Below, one piece after another: positions 2,158-57,995 of a stretch of 64,000 nucleotides of DNA. The notes under the pieces were generated by a model that was not told where the DNA came from, made no database searches, and was given only the letters and a program-made list of their open reading frames with translations. This DNA is from Mucilaginibacter paludis DSM 18603 (GTDB taxonomy: Bacteria > Bacteroidota > Bacteroidia > Sphingobacteriales > Sphingobacteriaceae). Position 1 is the stretch's first letter, and each line of letters opens with the position of its first letter. The stretch covers positions 1,054,001-1,118,000 of the forward strand of contig NZ_CM001403.1 of the NCBI RefSeq assembly GCF_000166195.2, given 5' to 3'. The position numbers and the translations under genes were made by a program.

Positions 2158-2302
2158 CTATCGGGACCTGATACTCACGGTGGAAAGCCATGAACAGCAG
2201 CGGCGTGAAATTGGCTACGATGGCCTGCGTGACAAAGCCGAGGTAACAGGACCGCTTGATGATGCTGTAGTCTTGGGAAGGTCTCATTATCGCTTCAGCC
2301 AA
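2158..2302 (-). pseudogene. MFS transporter N-terminal fragment, copy 1
   Basis: The minus strand from the ATG at 2302 reads MAEAIMRPSQDYSIIKRSCY and on for about 48 codons before running into the 165-bp repeat. The same start is longer at 43848-44295, where it continues as a hydrophobic major-facilitator segment. The start codon lies inside the end of the acyltransferase gene (16-bp overlap), so the original operon order was LuxR, acyltransferase, MFS. Here only the first transmembrane region remains. Confidence 0.55.
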
Positions 2303-3441
2303 TGTTTCCCCAGCCAGTTGCGTACCGGCTCGTCATAGAGCTTCAAACATGCCCATGCTACGCCCAAGCACATAATGAAAGTGGTGATACCGACGAAAAC
2401 ATGGGTGCTGACAGGCGAATCCATGTGATTCTCGGCCCAGCTCATGTGCATGTACATAATGGGATAATGGGTGATGTAGAGGGGGAAGGAGAGCTGTCCG
2501 ACGACAGTGCAGATACGGGTGGCACGACGCCCCTGCAGGCGGCTGCCAGCGCCAATAGAGAGGATGAGGGGAAAGAGCAGCAGGATGGCACAGAGCTCGT
2601 AGATACCCTCGTAAAGTGGGCTGATGTCGGTGAGCATAGGAGTAGAAACCATGGTAATGATAAGGAGCGATGCGGCCCAGAAGCCACCTTTGATAGAGAT
2701 AAAACGATTGATGCGCGAGAGCAGCAGCCCCATGGTGAATGGGAACATAAGGCGCACCATGGCACGATAGACGTGCTCAGGATCGAAGATGAAGCCGCCA
2801 TTGATGGTGTATTGGTAACCTTTGTCCACCAGATTGCCCCACAGATTGAGTTGCAAGCACAGATCGGCCGATAGTAGGGCACAGAAGGCCACGATGATAC
2901 CCAGCTGCACCTTATTTACGCGACGCAAGAAGAAGGCATAGAGGACATTGGCTACATATTCGTAAATAAGGGTCCAAATAGGACCATTGATACTGGTGAG
3001 CTCGCCCCAACCACGGATGTCCATCGACTTGGGCAGCGGAATCATGCAGATGAGAAGCAATGCCTCGAGCATCAACATATACCAGGGGGCAGAATCAACT
3101 GCATTGAAGGTGGGACCACCCGAATAATAGAAGAAGCAGATGCCAATGAGCACACCCATGATGGCCATAGGCTGCAGACGGGTGAGGCGGCGCTTGAAGA
3201 AGCCCCAGGTGGTCATCTTGTCCCAACGGTCATCGTAGGCATAACCGAGCACAAGGCCACTGAGCGCAAAAAAGAAATCCACCGACATGAAGCCGTGGGG
3301 CATCACCCAACGAGAGATCTCAGAGGGATAACACTCCATCATGTGAAACATCACAACACCCAGAGCCGCAACGCCTCTGAGTCCGTCCAGAATCTCGTAA
3401 CGTGGTTTGGATTCCTGATAGGTATTGGTTTGCTGATACAT
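2287..3441 (-). CDS. Acyltransferase 3 (OafA/NodX-like) membrane protein, copy 1
   Basis: 384 aa. It begins with the family hallmark RYEILDGLRGVAALGVVMFH (residues about 14-33, including the conserved R and H) and VDFFFALSGLVLGY, followed by about ten hydrophobic segments spread to the C-terminus. Such proteins transfer acyl groups to sugars of surface polysaccharides at the inner membrane. The amino-acid sequence is the same as the copy at 44280-45434. It follows the LuxR-type gene by 91 bp on the same strand and overlaps an MFS gene start at its 3' end. Base composition is unlike the flanking island genes, suggesting transfer from another Bacteroidota lineage. The acceptor substrate cannot be predicted. 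Confidence 0.85.
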   Translation of the reverse strand: MYQQTNTYQESKPRYEILDGLRGVAALGVVMFHMMECYPSEISRWVMPHGFMSVDFFFALSGLVLGYAYDDRWDKMTTWGFFKRRLTRLQPMAIMGVLIGICFFYYSGGPTFNAVDSAPWYMLMLEALLLICMIPLPKSMDIRGWGELTSINGPIWTLIYEYVANVLYAFFLRRVNKVQLGIIVAFCALLSADLCLQLNLWGNLVDKGYQYTINGGFIFDPEHVYRAMVRLMFPFTMGLLLSRINRFISIKGGFWAASLLIITMVSTPMLTDISPLYEGIYELCAILLLFPLILSIGAGSRLQGRRATRICTVVGQLSFPLYITHYPIMYMHMSWAENHMDSPVSTHVFVGITTFIMCLGVAWACLKLYDEPVRNWLGKHWLKR

Positions 3442-3532
3442 TTTGTAGAAATAATTAAGAAAGATGATCGTACTTTTTTTGGGTGCAAAAAAATGACATC
3501 TTTCGTAATGGACAATAGTTATTTATAACCAT

Positions 3533-4288
3533 TCAGAGCAGCCCCATGGCTCGAGCCACACGACAAGCCTCGATGGCATGATCCACGTTGAGTTTCTCCA
3601 GTATGTTCTGGCGATGACGATTCACAGTGTTGATGCTGATGGACAAGAGGTCGGCAATCTCCTTCGAGAGCTTGCCCTGGTCGATGAGTCGGAGCACTTC
3701 GCACTCACGGGTAGAGAGCACATGAGCGTAATCCTGATTCGTCAGCACACGTCTCTCACCTGTGCGGGTATTGATTATTTTGGCCTGATGCTGCTCCTCT
3801 CGGGCCAAAGTATAGACACATGCCATGAGGCGGAAACTTCCGTTCGACGAGGCTTCCATCGGGAAAATACGGTGTTCGACGACACGGTAGTTGCCCTCCT
3901 TGTCACGCAGTCGCATATAGTCGCTGAGGTAGAAATCGCGACGACGGGCGATGGGTATTGGCTTGAGCAGATGGACAAAAGCGAGTTCGTCGGCATGACG
4001 CTGAACTAAATCGTCGGCATCAGCTCGATTGAAAATGAAGTCTTCGTAGAGCGAAGGAATTATATCCTGGCGCTCTTCGACGGTCAAACCGAGTTCGTCG
4101 GCCAGCCCACCGAAATAGCAGTAACTGCAATTGAGCTTGTTGTCACCCATCGAGACAATAGCATTCTCGGTGAACGCATACACGCGGGCCAGCGATCGGC
4201 ACTCGGCTATCTGGCTGGCTTCGCCCTCATCCTCAGCGAAGGGCTGAGACATATACATATTGTTGATCTTTTTGAAATCATTGTCCAT
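3533..4288 (-). CDS. LuxR-family transcriptional regulator, copy 1
   Basis: 251 aa. The C-terminal ~65 residues are a LuxR/FixJ HTH: LSTRECEVLRLIDQGKLSKEIADLLSISINTVNRHRQNILEKLNV. The middle (about residues 100-170, with FYLSDYMRLRDKEGNYRVVEHRIFP) looks PAS-like and may sense a ligand or redox state. Two Cys sit in NCSYCYFG near residue 55. No receiver domain is seen. It lies 91 bp upstream of the acyltransferase gene on the same strand and probably controls it. A TATCTTTG -7 element lies about 55 bp upstream of the ATG. The protein is identical to the copy at 45526-46281. Confidence 0.85.
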   Translation of the reverse strand: MDNDFKKINNMYMSQPFAEDEGEASQIAECRSLARVYAFTENAIVSMGDNKLNCSYCYFGGLADELGLTVEERQDIIPSLYEDFIFNRADADDLVQRHADELAFVHLLKPIPIARRRDFYLSDYMRLRDKEGNYRVVEHRIFPMEASSNGSFRLMACVYTLAREEQHQAKIINTRTGERRVLTNQDYAHVLSTRECEVLRLIDQGKLSKEIADLLSISINTVNRHRQNILEKLNVDHAIEACRVARAMGLL

Positions 4289-4340
4289 TATTCCTCCTTG
4301 GTCATGGGGATATTAGTATGAATCGTAATCTCTCATGCTG

Positions 4341-4348
4341 CAAAGATA
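4341..4348 (-). promoter_or_regulatory. Bacteroidota-type -7 element upstream of luxR-like gene
   Basis: The minus strand has TATCTTTG, matching the TAnnTTTG consensus of Bacteroidota sigma factors, 53 bp before the ATG. A TTG core lies 16 bp further upstream. The same site is present in the second copy at 46334-46341. Confidence 0.45.
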
Positions 4349-4374
4349 ACGTATTCAAGTCTCGCAAGTAAAAT

Positions 4375-4734
4375 TTAGGCCGCCTTTGCTAATACTAGTC
4401 TATCAAAGTTGATATAATGTTTGAACGTCTCGCTTTTGTTAATCAATGCATCAAGAACGTGTTCGTCGTCTGTATCAAAAGCCACACTTAGGGTATTTGG
4501 CAAACAATTGTTTAGGTTGGCGTTGATTTTTACTGTCGTTCCCAATTTTTGCTGTAAACCATGTAGGAGTTTATCACGAAGGGTTGAAAGGTGAATGCTG
4601 TTCGCTGAAAGGTTTTGCTGTGCTAATTCACACGCTTTTCCAAGCCCAACAATGTAGGGAACATTTTCTGTTCCCGGACGAATTCCCTTTTCCTGACTTG
4701 CTCCATGTATTAAATTTTCAATTTTTGTACCCTG
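4375..4734 (-). pseudogene. Cysteine desulfurase (NifS/IscS-like) fragment, copy 1
   Basis: The frame matches the larger fragment at 46368-47024. It covers the region after the PLP-lysine, with GIRPGTENVPYIVGLGKACE and LNNCFPNTLSV, and then an unrelated tail. Compared with copy 2 it is cut earlier, at about 4734, where it joins an antitoxin gene. No active enzyme can be made from it. Confidence 0.65.
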
Positions 4735-5046
4735 CGTGTGTACGAACTAATGCAAACTGATATACAGGAAGGGTCAACTGCCTCCGACGACTTAGAGGTG
4801 ATTAGTATTCTTATTAAAGAATATGAGTTAGTGTATCATCCCATACCGTCTCCAAATCCGTTAGAGGCCATTAAATTCAGACTGGATCAAATGGGGATTT
4901 CTGAAAAAGAGTTGGGCGATATTTTGGGGTACCGCTCCCGCAAATCTGAGATTCTTTCCGGAAAGAGAAAATTGAGCTTAGCCATGATTAGAAAATTGAA
5001 CGAAGTTTTACATATCTCTGCACTGGTTTTAATACAAGCTTACTAA
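4735..5046 (+). pseudogene. HigA-type XRE antitoxin, N-terminus removed by insertion
   Basis: The frame reads YELMQTDIQEGSTASDDLEV, IKEYELVYHPIPSPNPLEAI and a C-terminal XRE domain (ISEKELGDILGYRSRKSEIL, SGKRKLSLAMIRKLNEVL). This is the layout of HigA antitoxins that follow a HigB toxin gene. About 15-20 native N-terminal residues and the upstream toxin gene are absent, because the foreign segment ends at about 4734. A Met codon at 4753 (or the GTG at 4738) might still start translation of a shortened DNA-binding protein. Its toxin partner is not present, so it is an orphan. Confidence 0.65.
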
Positions 5047-17851: not shown

Positions 17852-18121
17852 ATGACAGCTATTGATTTAATTACTAAAGAAGACCTGAAACAGTTAGAGA
17901 ACAAACTGTTAAACGCGATTGAGGCGATCAGGCATCCCGCAGGCGGAGGCCAAAGCAAGCAATGGCTGAAAAGCCAGGAAGTGCGGAAGCTGCTGAACAT
18001 TTCGCCGGGCGCGCTACAAAACCTGCGGATTAACGGCACGCTTCGTTATACCAAGATCGGCGGCATCCTTTATTATAAACTGGAAGACATCAACAAATTA
18101 CTGGAAGGAGGTTTGCAATGA
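17852..18121 (+). CDS. Helix-turn-helix (excisionase/MerR-like) protein of the mobilizable element
   Basis: 89 aa. A coiled-coil-like N-terminus (ITKEDLKQLENKLLNAIEAI) precedes a small winged HTH (WLKSQEVRKLLNISPGALQN, LRINGTLRYTKIGGILYYKL) ending in EDINKLLEG. This is the HTH_17-type fold common in excisionases and element regulators of Bacteroidota. Its stop overlaps the next start (ATGA). A 5'-truncated homologue lies at 1839-1992. Confidence 0.85.
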   Translation: MTAIDLITKEDLKQLENKLLNAIEAIRHPAGGGQSKQWLKSQEVRKLLNISPGALQNLRINGTLRYTKIGGILYYKLEDINKLLEGGLQ

Positions 18122-18429
18122 TTGCTAAGGTTATCCGGCAGGAAGCTGCCGTCTACAGTAAATGGATCAGGTGCATGTCGCAGGACAACCGGTTGCTGGC
18201 TACCCATGTCAGCCTGTTCTCCGGCCTGTTTGCCTGCTACCAGCGGAGCGGGTTTGTCAATCCGTTTCCTGTGAACCGGAAAACGCTGATGGCCTACGGC
18301 AAGATCGCTTCAATAGCCACTTACCACAAGTGTATCCGGGAGCTGGATGAGTTTGGTTATATCCGTTACCAGCCGTCCTTTCACCCAACCAAGGGCAGCC
18401 TCGTTTACTGGCCGGAATGGTCGGGATGA
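18118..18429 (+). CDS. Small partner protein of the HTH gene
   Basis: 103 aa, coupled to the HTH gene by a 4-bp overlap. It is homologous along its length to 1531-1842. The core LMAYGKIASIATYHKCIREL and FGYIRYQPSFHPTKGS looks like a winged-helix DNA-binding domain. Two coupled copies in one window show that the pair is a conserved cassette. It lies directly upstream of the hairpin array, so it may bind that DNA; this is inference. Confidence 0.7.
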   Translation: MIAKVIRQEAAVYSKWIRCMSQDNRLLATHVSLFSGLFACYQRSGFVNPFPVNRKTLMAYGKIASIATYHKCIRELDEFGYIRYQPSFHPTKGSLVYWPEWSG

Positions 18430-18468
18430 CCGGGAGCTACTTTATATCCCGATATGGCGATATAACAT

Positions 18469-19056
18469 AGCTGTATAGCTAGTATCTGGCTATACAGCTA
18501 TAAAATCTCCAAGTACAAAATAGCTGAATATCTATGCATCTGGATATACAGCTATATAGATATTAAATCTCCCGGTACCTCGTACCGGGAGATTAAGTAA
18601 CCAGCAACTTAGTAACTTGATACGACATGACCAGCGATTTAGTAACCCGTTATCAGATAACGGGAGATGGTATAACCCGTCACAATAGAACCAGCGATTT
18701 AATCGCCAGATACAAAGGAGCCGGTTACGGCGTAACTAACAGCCGTATACCAGCCTTCGTATTGGCGCTGACAGCGCCAATACGAAGGCCAATACCTAAA
18801 AAGCATCGTTTTTGTAACACAAAAACAGTTAAGGCCATGCCTAAACCACGGCAAACGGCTCAGGGGCCGGTAAAAACTGCGTTTTTACCAAAAGCGCGTG
18901 TCCAAACGAAAAATCGTTTGGAGCAAGCGGGAATTGGGCATAGCCCTATTCTGCTTGCCATTTGCGCTGCAAATGGGGTTTTGAGTATCCTCCGGGGATA
19001 CTCAGCCGCTTTTTTACCGGCAAAAAGAAAGAAAACAGGATACCCACGGGTATCCT
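18469..19056. repeat. Array of at least twelve consecutive hairpins with different sequences
   Basis: Perfect or near-perfect inverted repeats follow one another: 18469-18499 (11-bp stem), 18520-18555 (12 of 13), 18568-18592 (11), 18646-18664 (8), 18754-18788 (16), 18808-18826 (8), 18869-18889 (9), 18901-18922 (9), 18923-18958 (imperfect), 18958-18976 (8), 18982-19004 (9) and 19037-19056 (9). Smaller ones sit at 18694, 18724 and 18831. Most loops are 2-5 bases. Stems are unrelated in sequence, so this is not an iteron array. Short direct repeats of ACCAGC(GA)TTTA also occur at 18600-18700. It lies just upstream of the mobilization genes and might be an origin of transfer or replication. Confidence 0.7.
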
Positions 19057-19138
19057 CCATAGCTGTATATACGCTTAACGCGCTGTATCGCCCCACACCA
19101 GGCGGTTGGTACAGCCTATTACCAATAACAAAGAATAT

Positions 19139-19690
19139 ATGGACGATATTAATGTTAAGTCAGTAAGATACCCCGAAGCGGTTGACCATAAGTTTGAAAA
19201 GATAGCCCTTAAACTGGGCCGCACCAAACGCCAGGTCTTTATTCAGATGGTGGACTATTTTTATAAAAGCAAGAAAGACCCTGCAGACCTGAATGATGAA
19301 CTGTTAAAAAATTCACTGATGAAGAACCATCAGCAATATATCGGTTTTATCAGGACACAGGAGGACATGCTGCTCATCCCGATTAAAACAGAGATGGACA
19401 GGGTTTCCGAATCACAGGGCGAGATCATCCAGCGGTTTAATACCGAAGTCCTGGAGCACAATGTAAAAGTGCTGAACAATCAAACCGCCCATTCCAAAGC
19501 GTTCGGCGAATTAGGCCGTGTGCTGGACATCATCCTGAAAGCCATGCAAATCAAAGAGAACCTGAAAAGACAGTTTGTGCTGATCCTTGATGGCTATATC
19601 CGGTCGCGGGAGGCATTTGGCATGATGACATCCGGAAGAGAAAAGGAAGAACTGGTTGCTGCCACTAAAGAGCAGGTGAGGTTACTATAA
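19139..19690 (+). CDS. BtgA/BfmA-type mobilization protein
   Basis: 183 aa from the ATG at 19139 (MDDINVKSVRYPEAVDHKFE); an upstream ATG at 19106 would add 11 residues without family support. The motif LGRTKRQVFIQMVDYFYKSK followed by DPADLNDELLKN matches the BfmA/BtgA mobilization family of Bacteroides elements, which bind the transfer origin. A C-terminal helical part follows. Its relaxase-type partner (21262) would be 1.57 kb away only because an IS4 element has inserted between them. Confidence 0.8.
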   Translation: MDDINVKSVRYPEAVDHKFEKIALKLGRTKRQVFIQMVDYFYKSKKDPADLNDELLKNSLMKNHQQYIGFIRTQEDMLLIPIKTEMDRVSESQGEIIQRFNTEVLEHNVKVLNNQTAHSKAFGELGRVLDIILKAMQIKENLKRQFVLILDGYIRSREAFGMMTSGREKEELVAATKEQVRLL

Positions 19691-19778
19691 TAATTTAATT
19701 CCCCCTTTAGGGCATAGCCGTCAACTTTAGAAAAAAAAGGGATAAAATTTTTTTAGAGCAAGAATCGGAACTGCAAAA

Positions 19779-21038
19779 TTGCAGTCATTATTCGAGCGAA
19801 TGAGTTCGGAACTATTTGAACCAACGGTGTTAGATGGCCTGGCCCGTAAAACAGAGGCGATACAACGCAAACGAAAAGTGGGAGGCAAGGAACTATTGGA
19901 TATGGCGTTATTTGATGGAGATCAATCGTTTAACGGCATGAGTATGCAGTTAATGCGGAGGGATGGGCTTGATATTTCGAAGCAGGCATTGCATCAAAGA
20001 CATCACAGCAATATGACAAAGTTTGTACAAGCCGTTTTTGAGCAATTAATAGCAGTTGAGTTACCGCAAGAGCAAACACAGGGCTTGGAGATCCGTATCA
20101 AAGATTCTACCCGTTTCGCGTTGCCGGAAGTTATTGCAGAGACATTCCCCGGAACAAAAGGAAGTGGGATGAAAGCGGGAGCATCTGTACAATTTGAATT
20201 TGAAATCAAAAGTGGTAAAAGCGATATCAAAGTAACTCCGGCCAACGCAAATGACCAGGGTGAGAGTCATCTGGACAAGGCATCAATTCAGCCGGGGGTA
20301 TTATATATGAGAGATCTGGGTTACACTCACTTGAGTTATATGAACAATATTAACAAAGTCAAAGCTTTCTTTATTAATAAATTATGTCCGAAAACAACGA
20401 TTTATCTATTAAAGGACGACCAATACCAAAAGTTAGAGTTGTCGAAACTACAAGGCATAACCGGCGTATTTGATCAACAGGTATATATCGGAGCTGATAA
20501 GATGCCGGTAAGGATAATAATAGAACCGGTAAGTGAAGAGCTCAAGGCAAGGCGGATAGCCAATACTGAAAAGTACAATAAAAAGAAAGGCAGTACCACC
20601 AGTAAGGGATTCAAAGAGCGGGCAGGGTTTAACTTTATTGTTACCAACCTGGTGAGCGAAAAATATAGCGCTGAATTGATCCAAAAGTTATATCACCTGC
20701 GATGGCAGATAGAATTGGTTTTTAAAGCATGGAAGTCGTTTTTAAAGATACACACGTTCCCCAAAGGAAGTTCGGATCGTATAACCAGTATATTATACAG
20801 TAAGTTGATCTGGGCAGTTTTGAGTTGGAAAATATGCATGGCTATCGGTAAGATAGGTCAAATTAGTGTTTTAAAGGTGCATCGACTAATCGCTTCTACG
20901 AAAGAAGAATTGCGAGCGCAGCTTTTAGGGATATGCTCAAAGTGGTTAGCTCTGTTGGAGAAATTAAACTTAAAGCACCTTTCAAAAGAGCACAGAAAAC
21001 ATAGGTTAAAAATAGAAGAAATTGTAATAAGTATTTGA
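19779..21038 (+). CDS. IS4-family transposase
   Basis: 419 aa DDE transposase. First D in RIKDSTRFALP, second D in YMRDLGYTHLSYM, and the IS4 YREK signature YHLRWQIELVFKAWK (Y-2-R-3-E-6-K) carrying the catalytic Glu. Full length and undamaged, so the element may be active. The Met at 19779 is 69 bp inside the left end. Confidence 0.92.
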   Translation: MQSLFERMSSELFEPTVLDGLARKTEAIQRKRKVGGKELLDMALFDGDQSFNGMSMQLMRRDGLDISKQALHQRHHSNMTKFVQAVFEQLIAVELPQEQTQGLEIRIKDSTRFALPEVIAETFPGTKGSGMKAGASVQFEFEIKSGKSDIKVTPANANDQGESHLDKASIQPGVLYMRDLGYTHLSYMNNINKVKAFFINKLCPKTTIYLLKDDQYQKLELSKLQGITGVFDQQVYIGADKMPVRIIIEPVSEELKARRIANTEKYNKKKGSTTSKGFKERAGFNFIVTNLVSEKYSAELIQKLYHLRWQIELVFKAWKSFLKIHTFPKGSSDRITSILYSKLIWAVLSWKICMAIGKIGQISVLKVHRLIASTKEELRAQLLGICSKWLALLEKLNLKHLSKEHRKHRLKIEEIVISI

Positions 21039-21086
21039 TTATTAGATATTTAAATACTATATTTAGATAGTTAAACAAAAATAAGA

Positions 21087-21171
21087 AAGGCGGGGTCATC
21101 TAAACCTCCCCGCCTTAAAAAACGAAAAATATGAGAGTAAAAATACATAGGTTTGCCCATGCGGGCAAACC
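21087..21171. other. Two hairpins in the IS4 3' region
   Basis: AAGGCGGGG ... CCCCGCCTT (21087-21116) and GGTTTGCCC, loop ATGC, GGGCAAACC (21150-21171). They lie between the transposase stop and the right end. The first has a T-rich side on the minus strand, so it may stop transcription entering the IS from outside. Confidence 0.45.
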
Positions 21172-21261
21172 GCGCCTAAAAATTAAATAACTGAAAATCA
21201 ATTATGTATGAGTACAGTCGCTTAAATTGACGGCTATGCCCTTTAGGGGGTTAGGGGGCGT

Positions 21262-22224
21262 ATGTTTATCAATATTTCAGACAGCAGGGAAGCGGAAAAC
21301 AAAGGGAGCAGCAGCAAGCTGGTGCATTACCTCGAAAAAGAGAACCGGACCGATAACAGGCAAAAACCGGAATACTGGTTCAACGGGCAACAGGTGAGTA
21401 TTCAGCCTTATGAGGTCATGCGGAAAATAGACGGGAATGTTGCCAAGCTTGGTAAGGACGATGCCAAATTCTTTTTGGTCAATATCAGCCCGAGCCAAAA
21501 GGAGATCGCTTTTCTAAAGGAGCAATACGGCGAAGATGGTGCCAGAGACCAAATGAAAGGATTTGCGGTCAGGGTAATGGATGCCTACGCGCAGAATTTC
21601 AAACGAGAGAGCATCAACGGACATGAAGACCTGATATGGTTTGCCAAGCTGGAAAACTACCGCTATTACAGCCACAACGACCCGGAGGTTAAACAAGGGC
21701 TCAAAAAGCGGGGCGACCGCAAGGATGGCGAACAGCTGCATGTTCAGGTCATTGTCAGCCGTAAAGACGCGACCAATACCATTAAACTTAGCCCCATGAA
21801 CAATTCGCGCGGAAAAAATGCGGCGCATTCCAAAAAGATGGGCCAGTTTGACCGTTTGGCATTTAAAAAATGCGGTGAAAGTCTCTTCGACAGCCTGTTT
21901 GAATTTGACAGGCAGCTTAAAGATACACTGGCGTATGCCAATACCAAAAAGAACGGTAGCCTGACCGAAAGGGCGACAATGGAAAAACTGGAACAGGAAA
22001 CATGCGCTAAAATGCGAGAGGCAGAGATTGGTACAGACCTTTCCCCGGAACAGGTAGATTTAGAATTGGCACCAGACACACAAGAACAGACAGCGGAAAT
22101 AGGCTATTCGCATGAAAGTTGGGCTGCACCTTTCCGAATAGACATCGCAGACGATATTGATGACGAGGCCATTCACGGCAGGAACCGACACCGCAAAAGG
22201 AAAGCCAGAACCAATACCCGGTAG
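21262..22224 (+). CDS. BtgB/DUF5712-type mobilization protein (putative relaxase partner)
   Basis: 320 aa. The N-terminal half carries SSKLVHYLEKENRTDN, AKFFLVNISPSQKE and DGEQLHVQVIVSRKDATNTI (a HxQ-type strand like the histidine motif of relaxases) and MNNSRGKNA. This is the pattern of DUF5712/BtgB proteins paired with BtgA. The C-terminus is charged and ends in an Arg/Lys-rich tail. Before the IS4 insertion its start would have been about 40 bp after the btgA stop. Relaxase activity is inferred from family and position. Confidence 0.75.
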   Translation: MFINISDSREAENKGSSSKLVHYLEKENRTDNRQKPEYWFNGQQVSIQPYEVMRKIDGNVAKLGKDDAKFFLVNISPSQKEIAFLKEQYGEDGARDQMKGFAVRVMDAYAQNFKRESINGHEDLIWFAKLENYRYYSHNDPEVKQGLKKRGDRKDGEQLHVQVIVSRKDATNTIKLSPMNNSRGKNAAHSKKMGQFDRLAFKKCGESLFDSLFEFDRQLKDTLAYANTKKNGSLTERATMEKLEQETCAKMREAEIGTDLSPEQVDLELAPDTQEQTAEIGYSHESWAAPFRIDIADDIDDEAIHGRNRHRKRKARTNTR

Positions 22225-22650: not shown

Positions 22651-24849
22651 TTAATTGGTATGACCTTTTATATTATTTAACTCGTTAAAACGCTCCATAT
22701 ATATATCAAAATGGATCAGATCACTGCGGCCGAGGTTGCTGTAAAAAAGATATTCTGGAATTACTTGTTGTTCATTTGGCTGTTTGTAAGTCTGTTCGGA
22801 ATAAACTTTACGTCGTTGGTGAAACAGCATACTTCTGTTATATGCATTGGCCTGTTCTTGCATATTACGTCTGTAAATGCCACCACCCGTTTTAAGGTCG
22901 AGTGATTGCCGGAATGTTTCAGAGATATAAGACGTCCTGATCATATGTGATAAAAAGCTGAGCCAGTTCGGATGTATTGGCTCCGTCGCTGCAAGTCTGA
23001 GATTATTTAATAACCGAAGATAAAGAGTACTGCTGGAATCAATAGCAATAGGCAGGTAAGTTGTAGTGACAGATAAGCAATGGTTCTCGAAAAACGCGTT
23101 GGCAATCGTATTAATAGTGCCATAAGTAGGTGCAGTGTTGCAGGCGCATAAGAACACCAAAGGAGCACTGATGTTGTGAAGGACAACAAGTGGGCCGGTA
23201 AGTTGCTCGTCACCCAGCATTAGAAATGATGTTTTGTTTTCAGAGTTATAACCTCCGTGGCAATCGAAAATAAGCAGATCCGGTTTATATTTTCTAAATG
23301 CTTTTACTGCTGCGGCCACGGACAGACATACTTCAGTAACAAATTCATGCGTTTTAGCTAACTCTTTGACTTGGTAACGCCATGGCAGTAACTCCATGTC
23401 ATTACTACCAAAAATAACAAGTGTCTTTTTCAGGATATCTTTGGGCACAGTGTAAATGAAATGCTCATTGGCAGCAAAGGAACTCATTAAACCGTGAAGT
23501 GCAGTTTCAGGAAGTCTGCAGATATCATGGGTGAAAGACAGCGGCACTCCGTCTGTTTCCAACCATTCTATAGGGAGGTCAGTAATGGCCACAATCTGAC
23601 GATTTTCCACAAGTAATTTAGCCTTTAATCCCGGAGATAATGTGCGTTCAGCTAGCTGACTTCCAAATTTAGAAATGGTGTCTTTGAGTATTTTACGCGT
23701 TTCATGATCAGCATATTGTTCGATCTGAGAGGCGTCGAAAGCTGATAAGGTTTGGTTCAGTGTTTTGCCTTGGAATGGCAGTCGGATAATTGGAGAATAG
23801 GCAAATGAGGCATGAAGCGCGCCTAATGAATCAAGATATTTAATTTTTTGAAGAGTCACCCGCATCACCATACGCATTGATGCTTCGGTCATTGGTGGAA
23901 GAGAGTTAATATAATTCTGCGTCTGTTCAAAATCTAAAGACGTAAGGAGATTAACCAACTCCTCATCAAATTCAGCTGAAGCCGAACTTCGGTCTAACTT
24001 CACGAGATCGGGATTTTGGTAAGGAGCGATGATCAGGAGGGGTGAATACATGGTTTCGATCGCATGGACTGGTTTGATAATGTTATGCTCACGCATTAAC
24101 TCAAAGAATTTATCAATCTTCCTCGTTGATCGGATCAACGTTTTAAGGCGCCCAAATGAGTAAGGGGCTTTTTGCGCTTCGATGAGCTCGCGCTCATGTT
24201 CCGCTTTAATTTCCTCTTTACTTTTCTCAATTGTTCCGGGGCCGTACTTAAAGTTTCCAATAATCGAATTGAGCAAATGATAATTATTTTGTGCAGGCAC
24301 AAATACGGGGAAATCATAAAAATCCCGGGAGTAGAGGTCCACATGTGGGTGAAAAGTAATATCGGGAGCCCCAATTAGTTTGAGGATATGCTGATGTTCT
24401 GCATAAAGCATCCGCAAAAATTCTCCTGGGTCACTTACTTCGTTGTCAAGGCCGAGTGGCTGATCATCTTTTTTATTAAAAAAAAAGTAATAGTTTAAGG
24501 GCTGATGGGCATCCATAAGCGTATTTAAAACGCTATCCAGTTCAGGAACATTTGTGTTGATCAGGTAAAGCCGGATAATATTCCTGCGACTATTTGCCAA
24601 GTAAGGAATGAGGCTTGACGGATAGAGTACATTTAAACGGTAAGGGTTGTCATTTCTCAGACGATAAGCATTTTCGAAGAAATTGACCGGGTTGTCTATT
24701 TGCAGGATATCCTTTGGCAAGCGTCGTACAAAGTCGAGTGCGGGCCCTTCGAGTTCCTCTGGAGGAATGAAAGGGATAAATAAATCATCTTTTTGGGTGA
24801 TGAGCAAGTAATGAATTTGCGTGATCTGGTTGGGTCTAAGTGATAACAT
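22651..24849 (-). CDS. CHAT-domain (caspase-like) protease, 732 aa
   Basis: The C-terminal third is a CHAT peptidase domain: His531 in LLIFDCHGGYN and Cys570 in LVFLCACNTAPTYG, with the expected strand order. The N-terminal ~480 residues match no domain I know and are mostly helical. There is no signal peptide, so it acts in the cytoplasm. It is divergent from the TPR-CHAT gene across a 77-bp region. CHAT proteases in bacteria often cut a partner protein when a sensor is triggered (for example the TPR-CHAT subunit of Craspase). The nearby subtilase and nuclease genes are possible targets; this is inference. Confidence 0.8.
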   Translation of the reverse strand: MLSLRPNQITQIHYLLITQKDDLFIPFIPPEELEGPALDFVRRLPKDILQIDNPVNFFENAYRLRNDNPYRLNVLYPSSLIPYLANSRRNIIRLYLINTNVPELDSVLNTLMDAHQPLNYYFFFNKKDDQPLGLDNEVSDPGEFLRMLYAEHQHILKLIGAPDITFHPHVDLYSRDFYDFPVFVPAQNNYHLLNSIIGNFKYGPGTIEKSKEEIKAEHERELIEAQKAPYSFGRLKTLIRSTRKIDKFFELMREHNIIKPVHAIETMYSPLLIIAPYQNPDLVKLDRSSASAEFDEELVNLLTSLDFEQTQNYINSLPPMTEASMRMVMRVTLQKIKYLDSLGALHASFAYSPIIRLPFQGKTLNQTLSAFDASQIEQYADHETRKILKDTISKFGSQLAERTLSPGLKAKLLVENRQIVAITDLPIEWLETDGVPLSFTHDICRLPETALHGLMSSFAANEHFIYTVPKDILKKTLVIFGSNDMELLPWRYQVKELAKTHEFVTEVCLSVAAAVKAFRKYKPDLLIFDCHGGYNSENKTSFLMLGDEQLTGPLVVLHNISAPLVFLCACNTAPTYGTINTIANAFFENHCLSVTTTYLPIAIDSSSTLYLRLLNNLRLAATEPIHPNWLSFLSHMIRTSYISETFRQSLDLKTGGGIYRRNMQEQANAYNRSMLFHQRRKVYSEQTYKQPNEQQVIPEYLFYSNLGRSDLIHFDIYMERFNELNNIKGHTN

Positions 24850-24926: not shown

Positions 24927-26402
24927 ATGCATCCAGTGAACTTCAAGCTGCCTGACCTTGCCATTTTGCTTAAACGAAAACAATACAAGCTTATTATAGA
25001 GATCACTTCGGGCCTAGCAATAGACAATCATCAATATTTTCATTCTCATCTCTATCATTTCCGTGCATTGGCAGAATTGGGAAAATTTGCTAGTGCCAGT
25101 AGGCATTGTAAGAAGTTAATTGCTGTGATGCCTTCTAATCATGACTTCTACCCTCTATTCCAGGCATGGAATATTTTTCTTGAACTTTTTGTTACAGAAA
25201 AGAATAATTTCCAAGAGGTATTTGAAAAACTCGGCGAAAGTGGATGTACAGAAGATCAGACTTTGAAAGCTTTAATATGCTATTTGCAAAGTCGCGTCAT
25301 ATCATTTGGGATGGCCGTTGGTAGTTGGCCACAAAACGCGGTAAATCATGCTATAACACTCATGCAAGATGCAGCAGATACTTATTTAAGAAGTGATAAT
25401 CTAATAGAATACGGTTCAGCAATAAAAGCCATAGCGCTTCTTTACAGTAGCTATAATAACGGCGATATCCCGAAGGCAATTCTGTGTTTGCAACAGTTGT
25501 TACCTTTCAGCACCCATCCTGATAATTTATACTTTACGACAACGGTTCGACTATCACTTTTAATTCTTGAAAACCAGGCTGCTTTTGATACAGGTTGTTT
25601 TCTGGATCAGAACAAAAATGAACAACGAATTAATGAACTTATCTGTCAATTCCTACTAGCGGGTCATCCGTTGGGGGAAGCTGATGTCAAATTTGAATGG
25701 GGAATGCTTTTATTAGAATACGGTTACGAAAAAGGCATGCCATTTTTGTTCAATGCGATCAAATTATATGATAAATATGGGGAGTTCAGTAACCGCCAGT
25801 CGGCTTGGAAAAAAATAGCAGACTGGCATGAGCGGAGGGGCCAGGCAGAAGAAGCCGACAATGCCTATCGGGAAAGCGCGAAAGTGGATACCCATATCGA
25901 ACTGGAAATGACCGGAGCAATACAGGCTATCTTGGAGATTCACCATGCATTCATGGCTAAGCCGGAACGGGAAGCTGTGCGACTCGGCAGATTTTATTTA
26001 AATAAATACAAAGAAAGCCGCATGGCTCCGCAACTCAGGGCGCTGCTGGCGAATGCACTTAGTCAGGGCACGGGAAAGACGGAGGCCCTGGAGCACTTTG
26101 AAGCCATTGTTGACTATTATCAAGGTTCATCACCAAGTAGTTTTTTGAGCGACGCCTTATTCAACTACAGCAACGCGCTTTTCTCAGTTGACCCTATCGC
26201 TGCAAAGAATGCTGCTTTGAAGGCGATCGACATTGCACTCGAATTAAAAGACTACATTTCATTAGGGAAATATTTTCGCGAGTTGGCGCTGCACCTTTCC
26301 CAGCAAAAAAAAATAGCTCCCCTTTTAGTTGCAGGGCTGTTGCATTTAAAAGAAGAAGGATTTAAATTTGCAGAAAAAAGAGTATGGACAAGGGCATCAT
26401 AA
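24927..26402 (+). pseudogene. TPR-CHAT protease, 5' part (interrupted by ISAs1)
   Basis: Encodes the helical-repeat N-terminal portion; native codons run to 26331, after which the frame continues ~23 codons into the IS. TPR-like helix pairs are visible (for example LDLLIEITSG-type starts, YHFRALAELGKFASASRHCK, NAYRESAKVDTH). The native gene resumes at 27503. Joining 24927-26331 to 27503-29232 gives an uninterrupted 1,044-aa TPR-CHAT protein (KKIAPLLV then GANEIEDTFRKAHD), with one copy of the 10-bp target duplication. A truncated TPR-only protein may still be made. Convergent with the subtilase gene at its far end. Confidence 0.8.
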
Positions 26403-27492
26403 CCTATTTGCAGAAGTTGCCAGACGTGCGTAGAAAGGCTGGTCAGCGGCATGACCAAACGTTTATTTTGTTATTATTTGTGATGGGGACGATGAGTGGT
26501 TATTACGGCTATCGTGCTCTGGGTGATTTTATAAAGCGTAATCAAAAAGATCTTTTGACTTATTTCACTCCGAAAAAATCCCGTTTGCCTACGTTTTATA
26601 CCGTGAGGCGTGTACTGCAGAATTTAGATTTTGAAAGTTTAAGCGAAGTTTTTTATCAATGGGCCAGTCAGTATACAGAAATCAATAAAAATGAATGGAT
26701 GAATATAGATGGCAAAGCGATCAAAGGGACAATGAGTGATTATGCGCTTGAAAAACAGCGATTTGTAAATTTGGTGAGTATCTATAATGGGAGCCGTGGT
26801 CAAGTATTAGCCCAGGGTCTTGTAGACAATTCAAAGGAAAGTGAAATTCCGGTGGTACGCAAGCTTATTGCTGAACTGGGATTGGAAGGGGTAACGTTTA
26901 CGCTTGACGCCTTACATTGCCAAAAAAAACAGTTGAGCTGATAATAGGTACGAATAATGATTATATGATAGGCGTAAAAAAGAATCAAAAGGGCCTTTAT
27001 GAAAAAATAGCGGCGCTGACATCGGATACAGCAAAGGTTTGCAGCAAGTTCGTTGAATTGGAGAAAAATAAAGGACGTACAGAGCGCAGATCGGTATGTA
27101 TATGCCCGGCGCCAGAAGAAATCAGTAAAGCCTGGATAGGCGCCAGTCAGGTAATCAAGGTAGAGCGTTGGGTAAAAGACAAAAATAAGATCAGTGAGGA
27201 TTGCGCATTCTATATCAGCAGTGTGAGGGAAAATGCACAATTGTTATGCTATGGAATCAGAAGTCATTGGGGGATAGAGAATAAGCTACATTGGGTAAAG
27301 GATGTCACGTTTAAAGAGGATGCCTCCCGCATTAGAACTTCTCATGCACCAGAAAATATATCGGTGTTTAGAAACATCGCTATTAACGTTTTCAGAGCTC
27401 ATGGCTTTCAAAATATAGCACAAGCACAAAGACTCGTTTGCAATGACATCGGCAGATTGAAACAATTACTCACTTAGAATGCAACAGCCCTG
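26332..27492. mobile_element. ISAs1-family insertion sequence
   Basis: 1,161 bp. The terminal inverted repeats are 15 bp perfect (CAGGGCTGTTGCATT at the left, complement AATGCAACAGCCCTG at the right). The target duplication is 10 bp, CTTTTAGTTG, at 26322-26331 and 27493-27502. Inserted inside the TPR-CHAT gene. The exact duplication suggests a simple, fairly recent insertion. Confidence 0.93.
26384..27477 (+). CDS. ISAs1-family transposase, two frames joined at an A8 tract
   Basis: The first frame (26384-26941) carries the N-terminal region, [13 protein letters not shown] (first D) and [11 protein letters not shown] (second D). The second (in frame to 27477) continues [20 protein letters not shown] and ends with the E-region ([20 protein letters not shown]). 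The break is at CCAAAAAAAAC (26930-26940). A -1 slip there restores QKKTVEL, the usual family sequence. Either an A was lost and the gene is broken, or the protein is made by programmed frameshifting. ISAs1 transposases are usually a single frame of about 370 aa. Confidence 0.8.
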
Positions 27493-27502
27493 CTTTTAGT
27501 TG

Positions 27503-29232
27503 GGGCTAATGAGATCGAAGATACTTTCCGGAAAGCCCATGATTCATTTGCTCACGTGCAAACGCTAAAAGCGCACATTGAAAAGTTCAATGCGATACAG
27601 CAACTGGGCAACTATTATTTTAATGAAAGGCAATTTGATAAAGCCCTAAACTGCCTGGATCAGGCGCATAAATTTTATCATTCCAATAACCTCAGGATCA
27701 ATTCTGCATTCGTGTTATCGCATATCGGACTTCTCAAATTTGAAGTGGCGAGGACTAACCGTATTTCGTCCTTACTATTGGAGGCCGCTACCGATTTTGC
27801 AAAATCCGCGCAGGACTTCATTCAGATAAATGGGCATCGCTTTTCATGGAGAAGTACACTGTTGGAGGCGCAGTCTATCGCAGAATATGCATCGTTGTAT
27901 ACTGTGGGAGAACTAGCAGAGCTTAGTTTTGAAAGAGCACAGACTTGTTTTTTACGTGCCGCTAATGTTGTCGATTATCTAAAAGGGCTTCAGCAGGTCG
28001 TCCTGTCAAAATACGATGAACAGTTTACACATGTTAATGGATTTTCGGGCCATCCCACAGATTTCAATAAAGTATTTACAGGGGCTTTTAAGGCTGCTTT
28101 CTTCGGCAGAAAGCGCGCAGATCTTGCTCTTGAGTGGGTGGAGCGAAATAAAAGCAGACGGCTGCAAACAGAACTTTGGAGAACCAGTAACATATTTGCG
28201 CCTGAGGATATGGCTTACGTGCCGGGATTTGAAGAATTGAGAGAGATGCTGATGGCATATCAGTTAGATTTCTCTACTGAAAAGATGATGTTTTGCGAAT
28301 TCTTTATCCTTGATCAAACCATTATTCTTTTTCTGATAAGGCCGGAGTGGAGCGGTCCTAAATATTTTACATTAGCTGTTCAATCTGATGAAATCCGCCG
28401 TGAAGTAAACACTTTGATAAATGATCCGATAGCCAACGGAAATATGACAACTGCTTTACCATTAATTCAACATATCCTCAATCATAGCGACCGTGATGAT
28501 CTGCTATATATAATTCCGCATGGTTTTTTGCATCAATTACCATTCCATATGATCGATGTTGGTCAGGGCGAATACTTGATCCAACGTAACCCCGTAGCTT
28601 ATTTGCCGGCCTTATCTATTTTATATCATCTTCAAAATAAATCGAAGGCGAAAGAAGGAAAGGTAGCTGTAAAATTCGCAGTCTTTGGAAATTCGCGGGA
28701 GGACCTGCAGTTTTCTGAAGATGAGGCTATTTATGTGAGCACTTTACTTGACAGTGACTGTTATCTTCGTAACAGTGCAGATAAGGACACATTTATCAAC
28801 GCATTGTCTCACTCCTCTGTGCTACATTTCGCCGGTCATGCGGAATCCGAGCCCGTTAAGGGCCTGGACCAGATCCTTCTCTTAGCAAGACAGGAAAGTA
28901 TTTCGGCCAGAGAGCTCATGCTGATCAGAAACAATCTCGAATTGCTCGTGTTAAGTGGCTGTCAGACAGGCATAAATGCTATTGAGGCAGACACAGACGA
29001 AATAATCGGATTTCCCGCAGCCGCGCTGACAGCCGGGGCGTCTGCCGTAATTACAACATTATGGAAAGTGGAAGATAAATCGACAAGACAATTTTTTAAA
29101 TATTTTTACGAATCGTTTCGAAACAGGAAGTTGTCTAAAATTCGTTCACTTCAGTATGCCATGAAAGCCCTGATTAAAAACCCCGATTACGAACCATTCA
29201 ACTGGGCGCCATTTATATTTACGGGCAGGTAG
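27503..29232 (+). pseudogene. TPR-CHAT protease, 3' part with the CHAT domain
   Basis: Codons from 27503 are in frame with the 5' part when the IS is removed. A GTG at 27556 could start a separate 558-aa product. It has a TPR unit (QLGNYYFNERQFDKALNCLD) and then the CHAT domain: His at LHFAGHAESEP (residue 914 of the restored protein) and Cys at VLSGCQTGINA (residue 955), plus the closing FNWAPFIFTG strand. Catalytic residues are intact, so an N-terminally truncated protease without most sensor repeats may be produced. Its stop is 8 bp from the end of the convergent subtilase gene. Confidence 0.85.
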
Positions 29233-29240
29233 CTGTCAAA

Positions 29241-30446
29241 TTAATTTACAGGCGCTTTAATCATCCCGCTTCCGTAATCTTCAGACATTTCTCCGCTTAA
29301 AAGCTCGTCGTCACAGGATACCATCAAATTTGAATGAAGCATATTAGTATGGAATTGGTTCTTCTTCATTAATTTTTCTGCCCACATTGCAGCAATCCCG
29401 GCGACGTGTGGGGTAGCCATGCTGGTACCGTTTAGAGAGATGAGTCCGGTTGAGTTAGCTTCCGCTGAAAGAATATCCATTCCCGGACCAGATAACATCA
29501 CCCCCGTATTTGAAAATGGTGCAACATATAAACCTTTGCCATTCCATCCGAGCGCCCCCACGGAGATAATCTGTCGGGAAACAGCCGGTGGGCTAACAGC
29601 AATTTTATAGTCGGGGCGTGCGCTCTCATTGCCAGCCGCGGCGATAATCGTAACCGGCTGTGATGCCTCTGCATGCGCCTGTGTGGTTACAAGATCAGCC
29701 AGGCTTTCAAACAGTAGTACGTTTTTGCGGTAGCCTTCCAATGCGAAGGAAATCGCCGCCTCTTTATGCATACCTGCGAGCTCAAGCTCTTCGACAAAAC
29801 CTGGGAAGTCCATACCTAAGGACATAGAAATAATATTTGCACCTTCTTTCACCGCCCATTGGACGGCATTGACCAGCATGTCACTTCCGCCCGCGTTTTT
29901 GCCGAGTACTTTTCCGATCAATACATTATCCGCTTCCCTTGCTACTCCTATACGATACCCGGAAACATCTCGTCCAAAAGCTACCCCTGCACAATGCGTT
30001 CCATGGCCTTCCGTATCGCCGTTACCTTCTCCTGTAAAATCTTTTTCCGTTATACGAATACCCGCAAAAGCAGGATGACTTCTGTCAATTCCGGTATCTA
30101 AGATACATATCCTTACGCCTGCGCCTTGATATGGGCTGGTATCTGCGCCAATAGCTTTGATATTCCATAGCGGCTGACTTTCGGGCCTTGTACTTTCAGT
30201 TCCACGAAATGGTTTTATCAATTTAAGTGGCATCGCAGGAGCTATGGCCAGTACTTCCCTATTCCTATCCTGAATTCGTCTGACCTGGTCGCCTTCCAAT
30301 TGTTCTACTGCGACTTTTATCTCAGGGGCGACAACGAACTTGTCCATTTTTTTGCTGAGTTTTGACAGGCTCGGTCCGGAAGTGCGACCGCGAAAGCCGC
30401 CTGTTGTTGATTTGTCGGTATAAAGTATTATGTGATTTATTTTCAT
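29241..30446 (-). CDS. Cytoplasmic subtilisin-like serine protease (S8 family)
   Basis: 401 aa. The catalytic triad is complete: Asp117 (ICILDTGIDRSHP), His148 (GHGTHCAGVAFG) and Ser342 (LNGTSMATPHVAG), with the oxyanion Asn in AAAGNESARP. No signal peptide is present. The first ~95 residues could be a propeptide (EIKVAVEQLEGDQVRRIQDR...). It is the last gene of the operon small protein / nuclease / protease on the minus strand, 46 bp after the nuclease gene. It may be activated by, or act downstream of, the CHAT proteases that flank it; that chain is inferred. Confidence 0.93.
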   Translation of the reverse strand: MKINHIILYTDKSTTGGFRGRTSGPSLSKLSKKMDKFVVAPEIKVAVEQLEGDQVRRIQDRNREVLAIAPAMPLKLIKPFRGTESTRPESQPLWNIKAIGADTSPYQGAGVRICILDTGIDRSHPAFAGIRITEKDFTGEGNGDTEGHGTHCAGVAFGRDVSGYRIGVAREADNVLIGKVLGKNAGGSDMLVNAVQWAVKEGANIISMSLGMDFPGFVEELELAGMHKEAAISFALEGYRKNVLLFESLADLVTTQAHAEASQPVTIIAAAGNESARPDYKIAVSPPAVSRQIISVGALGWNGKGLYVAPFSNTGVMLSGPGMDILSAEANSTGLISLNGTSMATPHVAGIAAMWAEKLMKKNQFHTNMLHSNLMVSCDDELLSGEMSEDYGSGMIKAPVN

Positions 30447-36778: not shown

Positions 36779-37774
36779 ATGAATGTGAAATGGGCCTATA
36801 CGACTGTTAATACCTGGAGGGAATGTAATCGCAAATATTACTTCGCTTCTGTTTTAGCTAACCATAACCGCAAAAATTTGGTCAGACGGAAAGCCTATGA
36901 ACTTCGTGCCATGCAGAATTTAACAATGTGGAAGGGAAGTGTGGTCGATAAGTTTTTAGAAGTGGTGATCATACCAATGATTACAGCGCAAAAAGAATTG
37001 GATTTTCAGAGCCTTTCCGAGCAAGCTGTAGCATTCGCCCGGAAACAATTCCGTTTTTCCGAAAACAAGCTTTACGATAATCCAGAATTGAAAAAAGGGG
37101 ATATTGAAAGTGAATATTGTATTCTTGACATCCATGAAACCGGTCAACCATACACAGAGCAGGAGTTGGTAGCATGTTATGATGATATACGGAAAGCCAT
37201 ATTAAATATTCCGTTAGTCGTTTTACCGGACGGTCGCCATTTGATGAATTTGCTTAAAGAGGCAAACTGGCTGAAGCCAAATGTGGAGGACAGATTAGTT
37301 TACGTGGGTAACGCGATTGTCAAACCCCAAATGGACTTACTGGTCTCCGATAACTGGAAGCCGGTCATCATAGATTGGAAATTGTCCGACAGCATGGTTT
37401 CCGACTACGCTCGCCAGCTACAGATAAGCGGTCTGACCATTTATAAAAAAAGACTGGATACACCGGGTAAGCCGCCTTATCTATTTGAAGATATCGGGCT
37501 TTTAGAGGTTAATCTGTTAAAGGGCATTGCCAAACATCACGACTTTAATCAGGAGATATATAACAATATGATCGATTATATCTCCCTGACAAGCCGTGAT
37601 ATCGCGCTTATGACGGGCGAGGATATTGATATTGAAGATTTTGAGCTTACAAACAACCAGGTTTCCTGCAAAAACTGCAATTTCAGATTGCTATGCGGGT
37701 ATTTAATAAAAAATAACAATATATACGATGAAGGATCATATCTTAAATCTGTACCGGATAGACAACTTGTCTGA
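36779..37774 (+). CDS. Cas4/RecB-like PD-(D/E)XK nuclease with four-Cys cluster
   Basis: 331 aa. Nuclease motif: Asp186 in KPQMDLLVSD and Asp199-Trp-Lys201 in PVIIDWKLSD, followed by a QLQISGLTIY helix (the Q-x3-Y type). Four cysteines fit an iron-sulfur cluster: Cys16 (TWRECNRKYYF) near the start, and Cys297, Cys300 and Cys306 (CKNCNFRLLC) near the end, as in Cas4 and AddB. It overlaps the Argonaute gene by 47 bp, so the two are co-translated. Cas4-like nucleases are known neighbours of prokaryotic Argonautes and might produce guides or ends for loading. Confidence 0.85.
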   Translation: MNVKWAYTTVNTWRECNRKYYFASVLANHNRKNLVRRKAYELRAMQNLTMWKGSVVDKFLEVVIIPMITAQKELDFQSLSEQAVAFARKQFRFSENKLYDNPELKKGDIESEYCILDIHETGQPYTEQELVACYDDIRKAILNIPLVVLPDGRHLMNLLKEANWLKPNVEDRLVYVGNAIVKPQMDLLVSDNWKPVIIDWKLSDSMVSDYARQLQISGLTIYKKRLDTPGKPPYLFEDIGLLEVNLLKGIAKHHDFNQEIYNNMIDYISLTSRDIALMTGEDIDIEDFELTNNQVSCKNCNFRLLCGYLIKNNNIYDEGSYLKSVPDRQLV

Positions 37775-43847: not shown

Positions 43848-44295
43848 GGAGCAGACTCATCATGCTCTCCTTGTTGGGGAAAGGACACGCCTCGATGATG
43901 GGGCTACAAAGCACCTCGATCAGGCCACTGCCGACGGCATAAATGCTGACGCATAGGAGTATGCCCACCAACGGATTGGGGAAGAGCGCAGGAACAATGG
44001 CCAAGCCTGCGAGACCCAGAGCCGAGGTGACCTCAGAGATGATGATGATGATGATGATGATGCGATAGTTGATGTTCTTGAACTTGGCACACAGGAACTC
44101 TGTAACGAGTTGGACAATGTAGAAAACAGCTGGAATCAGGGCTAAACTGGCTATCGGGACCTGATACTCACGGTGGAAAGCCATGAACAGCAGCGGCGTG
44201 AAATTGGCTACGATGGCCTGCGTGACAAAGCCGAGGTAACAGGACCGCTTGATGATGCTGTAGTCTTGGGAAGGTCTCATTATCGCTTCAGCCAA
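43848..44295 (-). pseudogene. MFS transporter N-terminal fragment, copy 2
   Basis: From the ATG at 44295: MAEAIMRPSQDYSIIKRSCY, several hydrophobic helices (including an unusual run of Ile encoded by repeated ATG/ATC-like triplets near 44040-44065) and GLIEVLCSPIIEACPF, ending at MSLLH, a point in the middle of the usual MFS motif. The frame then enters the methylase fragment out of register. About 149 codons of a ~400-aa transporter remain. Start overlaps the acyltransferase stop. Confidence 0.65.
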
Positions 44296-45434
44296 TGTTT
44301 CCCCAGCCAGTTGCGTACCGGCTCGTCATAGAGCTTCAAACATGCCCATGCTACGCCCAAGCACATAATGAAAGTGGTGATACCGACGAAAACATGGGTG
44401 CTGACAGGCGAATCCATGTGATTCTCGGCCCAGCTCATGTGCATGTACATAATGGGATAATGGGTGATGTAGAGGGGGAAGGAGAGCTGTCCGACGACAG
44501 TGCAGATACGGGTGGCACGACGCCCCTGCAGGCGGCTGCCAGCGCCAATAGAGAGGATGAGGGGAAAGAGCAGCAGGATGGCACAGAGCTCGTAGATACC
44601 CTCGTAAAGTGGGCTGATGTCGGTGAGCATAGGAGTAGAAACCATGGTAATGATAAGGAGCGATGCGGCCCAGAAGCCACCTTTGATAGAGATAAAACGA
44701 TTGATGCGCGAGAGCAGCAGCCCCATGGTGAATGGGAACATAAGGCGCACCATGGCACGATAGACGTGCTCAGGATCGAAGATGAAGCCGCCATTGATGG
44801 TGTATTGGTAACCTTTGTCCACCAGATTGCCCCACAGATTGAGTTGCAAGCACAGATCGGCCGATAGTAGGGCACAGAAGGCCACGATGATACCCAGCTG
44901 CACCTTATTTACGCGACGCAAGAAGAAGGCATAGAGGACATTGGCTACATATTCGTAAATAAGGGTCCAAATAGGACCATTGATACTGGTGAGCTCGCCC
45001 CAACCACGGATGTCCATCGACTTGGGCAGCGGAATCATGCAGATGAGAAGCAATGCCTCGAGCATCAACATATACCAGGGGGCAGAATCAACTGCATTGA
45101 AGGTGGGACCACCCGAATAATAGAAGAAGCAGATGCCAATGAGCACACCCATGATGGCCATAGGCTGCAGACGGGTGAGGCGGCGCTTGAAGAAGCCCCA
45201 GGTGGTCATCTTGTCCCAACGGTCATCGTAGGCATAACCGAGCACAAGGCCACTGAGCGCAAAAAAGAAATCCACCGACATGAAGCCGTGGGGCATCACC
45301 CAACGAGAGATCTCAGAGGGATAACACTCCATCATGTGAAACATCACAACACCCAGAGCCGCAACGCCTCTGAGTCCGTCCAGAATCTCGTAACGTGGTT
45401 TGGATTCCTGATAGGTATTGGTTTGCTGATACAT
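44280..45434 (-). CDS. Acyltransferase 3 (OafA/NodX-like) membrane protein, copy 2
   Basis: 384 aa, same protein as 2287-3441: N-terminal RYEILDGLRGVAALG, VDFFFALSGLVLGYAYDDRW and about ten hydrophobic segments to the C-terminus. Expected to O-acylate surface glycan at the inner membrane. Downstream of the LuxR-type gene; its end overlaps the MFS fragment start by 16 bp. Base composition suggests foreign origin. Confidence 0.85.
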   Translation of the reverse strand: MYQQTNTYQESKPRYEILDGLRGVAALGVVMFHMMECYPSEISRWVMPHGFMSVDFFFALSGLVLGYAYDDRWDKMTTWGFFKRRLTRLQPMAIMGVLIGICFFYYSGGPTFNAVDSAPWYMLMLEALLLICMIPLPKSMDIRGWGELTSINGPIWTLIYEYVANVLYAFFLRRVNKVQLGIIVAFCALLSADLCLQLNLWGNLVDKGYQYTINGGFIFDPEHVYRAMVRLMFPFTMGLLLSRINRFISIKGGFWAASLLIITMVSTPMLTDISPLYEGIYELCAILLLFPLILSIGAGSRLQGRRATRICTVVGQLSFPLYITHYPIMYMHMSWAENHMDSPVSTHVFVGITTFIMCLGVAWACLKLYDEPVRNWLGKHWLKR

Positions 45435-45525
45435 TTTGTAGAAATAATTAAGAAAGATGATCGTACTTTTTTTGGGTGCAAAAAAATGACATCTTTCGTA
45501 ATGGACAATAGTTATTTATAACCAT

Positions 45526-46281: not shown

Positions 46282-46367
46282 TATTCCTCCTTGGTCATGG
46301 GGATATTAGTATGAATCGTAATCTCTCATGCTGCAAAGATAACGTATTCAAGTCTCGCAAGTAAAAT

Positions 46368-57974: not shown

Positions 57975-57995
57975 TGTTCTTTAAAACATGCTTAG

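Follow-up and report, generated by a model that had tools for sequence, protein, structure and literature searches.

What is the string of DNA hairpins that stands between an HTH gene pair and the mobilization genes btgA and btgB in Mucilaginibacter paludis DSM 18603? The hairpins lie in a stretch of 64,000 nucleotides, hereafter the window, and were described in an original prediction as at least twelve perfect stems, unrelated in sequence, that might form a transfer origin of a new kind or be the product of a mechanism making inverted repeats. The predicted placement between the two sets of genes was confirmed. Upstream lie an HTH_17 gene (17852-18121, plus strand; Pfam PF12728, 35.6 bits), the first of the pair, and its partner orfB (18118-18429, plus strand), for which no Pfam or NCBIfam match was obtained; the same order is found in most relatives. 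Downstream, also on the plus strand, btgA (19139-19690) belongs to the BfmA/BtgA family (NF041200, 39.6 bits against a cut-off of 24) and btgB (21262-22224) encodes a MobB-family relaxase (NF041495, 256.8 bits against a cut-off of 200; DUF5712). The called open reading frame of btgA opens at a TTG at 19106, and relatives favour the ATG at 19139. In the window, an IS4-family insertion sequence (19710-21241, plus strand; NF033592), with 15-base terminal inverted repeats and TTTA on either side, stands between btgA and btgB, whereas the spacing of these genes in relatives is usually about 5-60 bases. This element may uncouple btgB from btgA transcription.

Extent and folding of the hairpin string

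Between orfB and btgA (18430-19105), ten non-overlapping perfect stems of at least 8 bp with loops of 2-10 bases were counted; 200 dinucleotide shuffles gave 0.10 on average and at most 2, and three or more such stems occur in no other 500-base bin of the 64-kb window. Folded as single-stranded DNA, positions 18400-19100 reach -161.5 kcal/mol compared with -84.0 for shuffles (z = -20.7). Both the strong single-strand folding announced in the original prediction and an abundance of stems beyond that of shuffled sequence are thus upheld, and several details of the description required revision. The number of at least twelve holds for all stems, about 14 once the imperfect ones are counted (18442-18465; 18467-18501, a 16-bp stem with one mismatch; 18527-18564; and hairpin B, 18923-18958), and not for the perfect ones. 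Perfect stems measure 8-17 bp, close to the predicted 8-16, the longest being that at 18753-18789, and instead of following each other almost without gaps some are separated by about 40-90 bases. Stems from 18566 on are indeed unlike each other, but the two leftmost large palindromes are diverged copies of one another (repeat families D2, D4 and D6) and the hairpins called D and E below have the arm sequence GTATCC/GGATAC in common, which changes in both together in several relatives.

Iteron, CRISPR and attC arrays were rejected, as had been anticipated, because a repeated unit of common sequence is missing and only short families of two or three copies are found. An open reading frame running across the hairpins (18627-19166) was taken as chance. 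The hairpin region consists of two parts, a conserved module on the right and a lineage-specific array on the left.

A conserved core upstream of btgA

The right-hand core (18901-19056) contains hairpins A (18901-18922, arms TCC...GGA), B (18923-18958, GCAAGC..GCTTGC with inner stems GAAT/ATTC and GGGC/GCCC), C (18958-18976, loop GCT), D (18982-19004, loop TCCGG) and E (19037-19056, with arms related to those of D). At 56 loci encoding BtgA relatives, the intervals preceding btgA were compared, and roughly the final 220 bases have hairpins A to E in common, in changed sequence. When all fetched loci were searched for hairpin B, the core was found at 99 places, 68 of them distinct. At one of the loci, L004 (reverse strand), nearly identical units of about 17 bases (GAACAAATTCCCGGC) follow one another upstream of the core.

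Covariation was examined in 38 aligned cores (alignment A1), the pairs of B, D and E being named by hand. Paired bases occupy 91.5% of the cells, and both sides have changed in 16 of the 30 pairs, a count that no shuffle reached; in hairpin D, this applies to seven of eight pairs. The covariation score of 0.214 compares with 0.101 in shuffles and was reached by none of 500, a control made lenient by the relatedness of the rows; it falls to 0.10 or less (at most 0.099) when the partners are slid by 1-3 columns, a control that keeps this relatedness and favours a structure chosen on these sequences. In hairpin A, 360 of 401 cells are Watson-Crick, with several pair types at most positions, and the hairpin is weak or missing at L026, L035-L040, L053, L058 and L060. 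About ten aligned rows leave the outer stem of B unpaired, a one-base shift in the alignment accounting for part of this. The test initially proposed, whether stem positions are kept while their sequence changes, thus comes out positive for the right-hand 160 bases and negative for the left two thirds.

The motif GAGCAAGCGG (18921-18930, plus strand) lies at the base of hairpin B and is invariant in nine of its ten columns, also in rows whose 3' partner has changed. This constancy fits sequence recognition by a protein, and the motif is a candidate relaxase recognition sequence. A covariance model of the core (R1; 24 pairs, weak structure) matched the window and missed the diverged versions found on plasmids. 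A second mob locus exists at 600-602 kb in the 8.4-Mb genome, whose nearest named matches are Mucilaginibacter; a 34-base core pattern with three mismatches allowed had no match in this genome, where both copies differ by more.

Linkage of the core to mobilization genes

A genus survey of 149 genomes yielded 67 copies of the core, 54 of which have a same-strand BtgB within 4 kb downstream (median 638 bases); some of the remaining 13 lie at contig ends or with a partial module. Partial modules are seen at L104 and L110, which retain btgA, and at L115, where btgA is present and BtgB gave no match. The position of the core is also informative. It is found upstream of btgA in one lineage and ahead of the whole HTH-orfB-btgA-btgB set in another (Parapedobacter, some Sphingobacterium and Pedobacter), in which the gap between orfB and btgA is just 40-50 bases or so and the core precedes the HTH gene, about 800 bases upstream of btgA. 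The core is therefore part of the mob block and not the leader of one gene.

The core was furthermore observed apart from mob genes. Next to tRNA-Ser genes with four different anticodons, L103, L106 (two cores), L109 and L114 have an integrase that shares about 60% identity with that of the window, and no match to BtgA or BtgB was obtained at these loci. The core starts some 255-275 bases past the integrase gene in L103, L106 and L114, and about 3.3 kb off in L109. Near the cores of L103, L105, L106, L109 and L112, the open reading frames encode, among other products, a phosphoesterase, a GIY-YIG protein, a UDG-like protein and a nuclease-family transposase, with no relaxase family among them. 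Cores devoid of mob genes are expected of a cis-acting oriT and are hard to square with a btgA leader RNA.

Could the hairpins nevertheless act through expression control, as the leader of the btgA mRNA or as a separate small RNA for mobilization? This is very unlikely: strong covariation is a mark of RNA too, the core is in sense orientation upstream of btgA and SGI1 mobilization is reported to need a self-encoded small RNA (PMC9299015), but cores exist without btgA or btgB, other genes separate core and btgA in the lineage just described, G-T pairs are rare, and the hairpins had no Rfam match at or above the gathering score, the tmRNA being the sole match within the window. Taken over the whole set of hairpins, G-T mismatches do not favour either strand (11 versus 9 A-C), and their excess in hairpin D of the core (16 versus 0) lies almost wholly at the two outermost pairs, in related rows. 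This pattern leans, as an indication rather than a proof, towards structure at the level of DNA rather than RNA.

The core as a probable transfer origin

The best reading of the core, on comparative grounds, is that of the oriT of a defence-carrying mobilizable island, and there is good reason to believe that 18901-19056 serves as oriT to a MOB_B (BtgA/BtgB) mobilization module. This assignment is proposed because of the covariation, the co-occurrence with btgA/btgB and the cores on integrase islands that lack a relaxase. The core also has two features expected of a MOB_B oriT, namely linkage to btgA/btgB and a conserved inverted repeat, hairpin B, combined with the conserved GAGCAAGCGG. The transfer origin of the original prediction can be retained for the right-hand 160 bases, on the strength of the same three observations, and not for the left two thirds. 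The qualification "of a new kind" was too strong, the candidate being of the known MOB_B type with a version of hairpin B on Bacteroides plasmids.

In the proposed scheme, the BtgB relaxase would recognise GAGCAAGCGG at the base of hairpin B and would nick near it, both the nick and the identity of the transferred strand being predictions of the scheme. BtgA, provisionally assigned to hairpins such as D and E, would bind the arm sequences repeated there, and a helper element would supply the secretion channel into which BtgB is led. A sequence search found no solved relatives of BtgA or BtgB. The AF2 model of BtgA (pLDDT 80.7, pTM 0.35) consists of a poorly modelled start, two short helices and then a helix of nearly 100 residues. 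A Foldseek search with this model placed the Arc repressor first and listed other ribbon-helix-helix proteins, every E-value being above 1, so that a ribbon-helix-helix fold for BtgA is put forward as a suggestion.

Together, GAGCAAGCGG and hairpins A to E would provide a covarying signature for recognising MOB_B oriTs in Sphingobacteriaceae, with a reduced form on gut Bacteroides plasmids. The relaxase-less islands at tRNA-Ser genes (L103, L106, L109 and L114) may be candidates for mobilization in trans, with BtgB as the protein that would move them.

A lineage-specific array to the left of the core

The left array (18435-18889) is made of the hairpins at 18442-18465, 18467-18501, 18527-18564, 18566-18594, 18646-18664, 18753-18789, 18808-18826 and 18869-18889, and folds strongly as a single strand (z -10.9). 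Its hairpins recur solely in the closest relative, L074/L111. Different palindromes occupy this position in L023, L024, L027, L029 and L042 (z -5 to -9), and in L010-L020 the interval has z values between -2.4 and +1.3. The left two thirds are therefore not kept among relatives as the original prediction required, one close relative having the same hairpins, a few having different ones and many none, and for this reason the array is not essential to the core. Over HTH-orfB, the window and L074/L111 are about 67-82% identical; the value rises to 82-99% between about 18430 and the final hundred bases of btgB, and is 75% thereafter. The steps at about 18430 and near the end of btgB imply that array, core and btgA/btgB have on at least one occasion moved as a single block.

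The relatives also differ in a characteristic manner. Several loops are exact reverse complements of each other between relatives: TGC/GCA at 18878-18880, GCCA/TGGC in hairpin E, AAA/TTT in a left hairpin of L027 and L102, and AGA/TCT in hairpin B of L114; no such inversion was seen in C or D. In addition, the stems at 18467, 18527, 18566 and 18753, taken together, contain eight fewer unpaired positions in the window than in L074; correction in the window and decay in L074 would both account for this difference. Loop inversion is a signature reported for template switching (PMC8794818; PMC8604942). The inverted loops and the unequally perfect stems suggest template switching at the hairpins, whose left-array stems would have been formed or repaired in this way on folded single strands, and the left array may be partly a mutational product. 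The mechanism making inverted repeats that was initially envisaged thus gains support.

Whether the array also has a role can be approached from the same observations. A reading that may be held tentatively, at somewhat under even chances, is that it has none: template switching at folded single strands would both create its palindromes and keep them perfect, and they would drift freely. The exactly inverted loops, the stems perfect in the window and imperfect in L074 and the variation of arrays from lineage to lineage all point this way. The close relative, where array and btgA/btgB were carried along together at 82-99% identity, speaks against it, as does a direction of stem changes not given by the data. 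It is doubtful that the left palindromes are double-stranded operators for the HTH, orfB or BtgA proteins, with folding as a side effect. The kinship of the first two palindromes, the recurrence of ATAGCTGTATA at 19059, right of the core, and the concerted change of the D and E arms, as for two sites of one protein, are consistent with operators, but the stems from 18566 on differ from each other, and stems of 13-18 bp with loops of 1-3 bases exceed operator needs.

Improbably, the array would serve the leading region as a single-strand initiation site or single-strand promoter at the entry of the transferred strand into the recipient. Its very strong folding agrees with such a site, as does its location across the core from the mob genes: in conjugation generally, the leading region would lie there if the minus strand is the one transferred. 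The same core is present, however, in many relatives that have no such array. Likewise improbable is a functional single-strand module selected for folding and not for sequence, serving for instance priming or expression on the entering strand and renewed by template switching during transfer, each lineage having its own array. If the array was shaped by template switching, the loop inversions would be a natural record of hairpin-driven template switching close to a probable transfer origin.

The surrounding island

The window looks like a mobilizable island with defence cargo. A tyrosine integrase gene (56525-57745, minus strand) lies beside the tmRNA gene (57993-58360) at the probable right end of the island; a second copy of the tmRNA 3' end, which could mark attL, was not found in the search for the left end, and that end was not located. 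The interval 36779-40115 is noted for a long-type prokaryotic Argonaute with a Cas4-like nuclease gene directly upstream, and further defence-like cargo at 22651-24849, 27556-29232, 29241-30446 and 54333-55640 comprises BovA-like CHAT proteins, a subtilase and an ApeA-type protein. Positions 2158-4743 and 44151-46737 hold two copies of a 2.6-kb segment, 99.7% identical, with an acyltransferase gene and a LuxR-type regulator gene, and a transposase-like gene at 26384-27477 is split across two overlapping frames (26384-26941 and 26917-27477).

Comparison with known systems

The closest known counterparts are the btgA/btgB (MOB_B) plasmids of Bacteroides, of the pBFTM10 type, among which pBuniCL06T03-1 was read. 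Binding of btgA to the pBFTM10 oriT goes back to a 1991 study, as cited in a paper on a B. fragilis element (PMC10865816). Thirteen plasmids that carry DUF5712 genes, several of which are nearly identical to one another, were read in the interval preceding btgA, and ten of the 13, gut Bacteroides plasmids included, have a diverged counterpart of hairpin B, opening with AGCAAG and closing with CTTGC. Of the other three, one from Bacteroides ovatus has the same hairpin with AGTAAG, one from Flagellimonas has a variant and one from Spirosoma has none. The Bacteroides plasmids agree with the window in the position upstream of btgA, in the families of btgA and DUF5712, and in a GCAAG...CTTGC hairpin, there followed by CCCTACG and a second hairpin; they differ in that hairpins A, D and E are not recognisable and the inner stem sequences are different.

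The islands of the L103 type (L103, L106, L109 and L114) resemble the iOriT/pOriT hitcher elements (PMC11389934) in combining an integrase and an oriT-like core with no relaxase, with the difference that both their mobilization and their helper are presumed. The template-switch footprints described earlier (PMC8794818, PMC8604942) likewise join loop inversion with correction of stem arms; those studies concern rRNA genes and yeast coding sequence, whereas the present footprints are in DNA beside a candidate transfer origin. Finally, the oriT of SGI1, with its self-encoded small RNA (PMC6414798, PMC9299015), is also a structured region by mobilization genes on an integrated island, but it belongs to another phylum with other mob proteins, and here a structure at the level of DNA is favoured over RNA.
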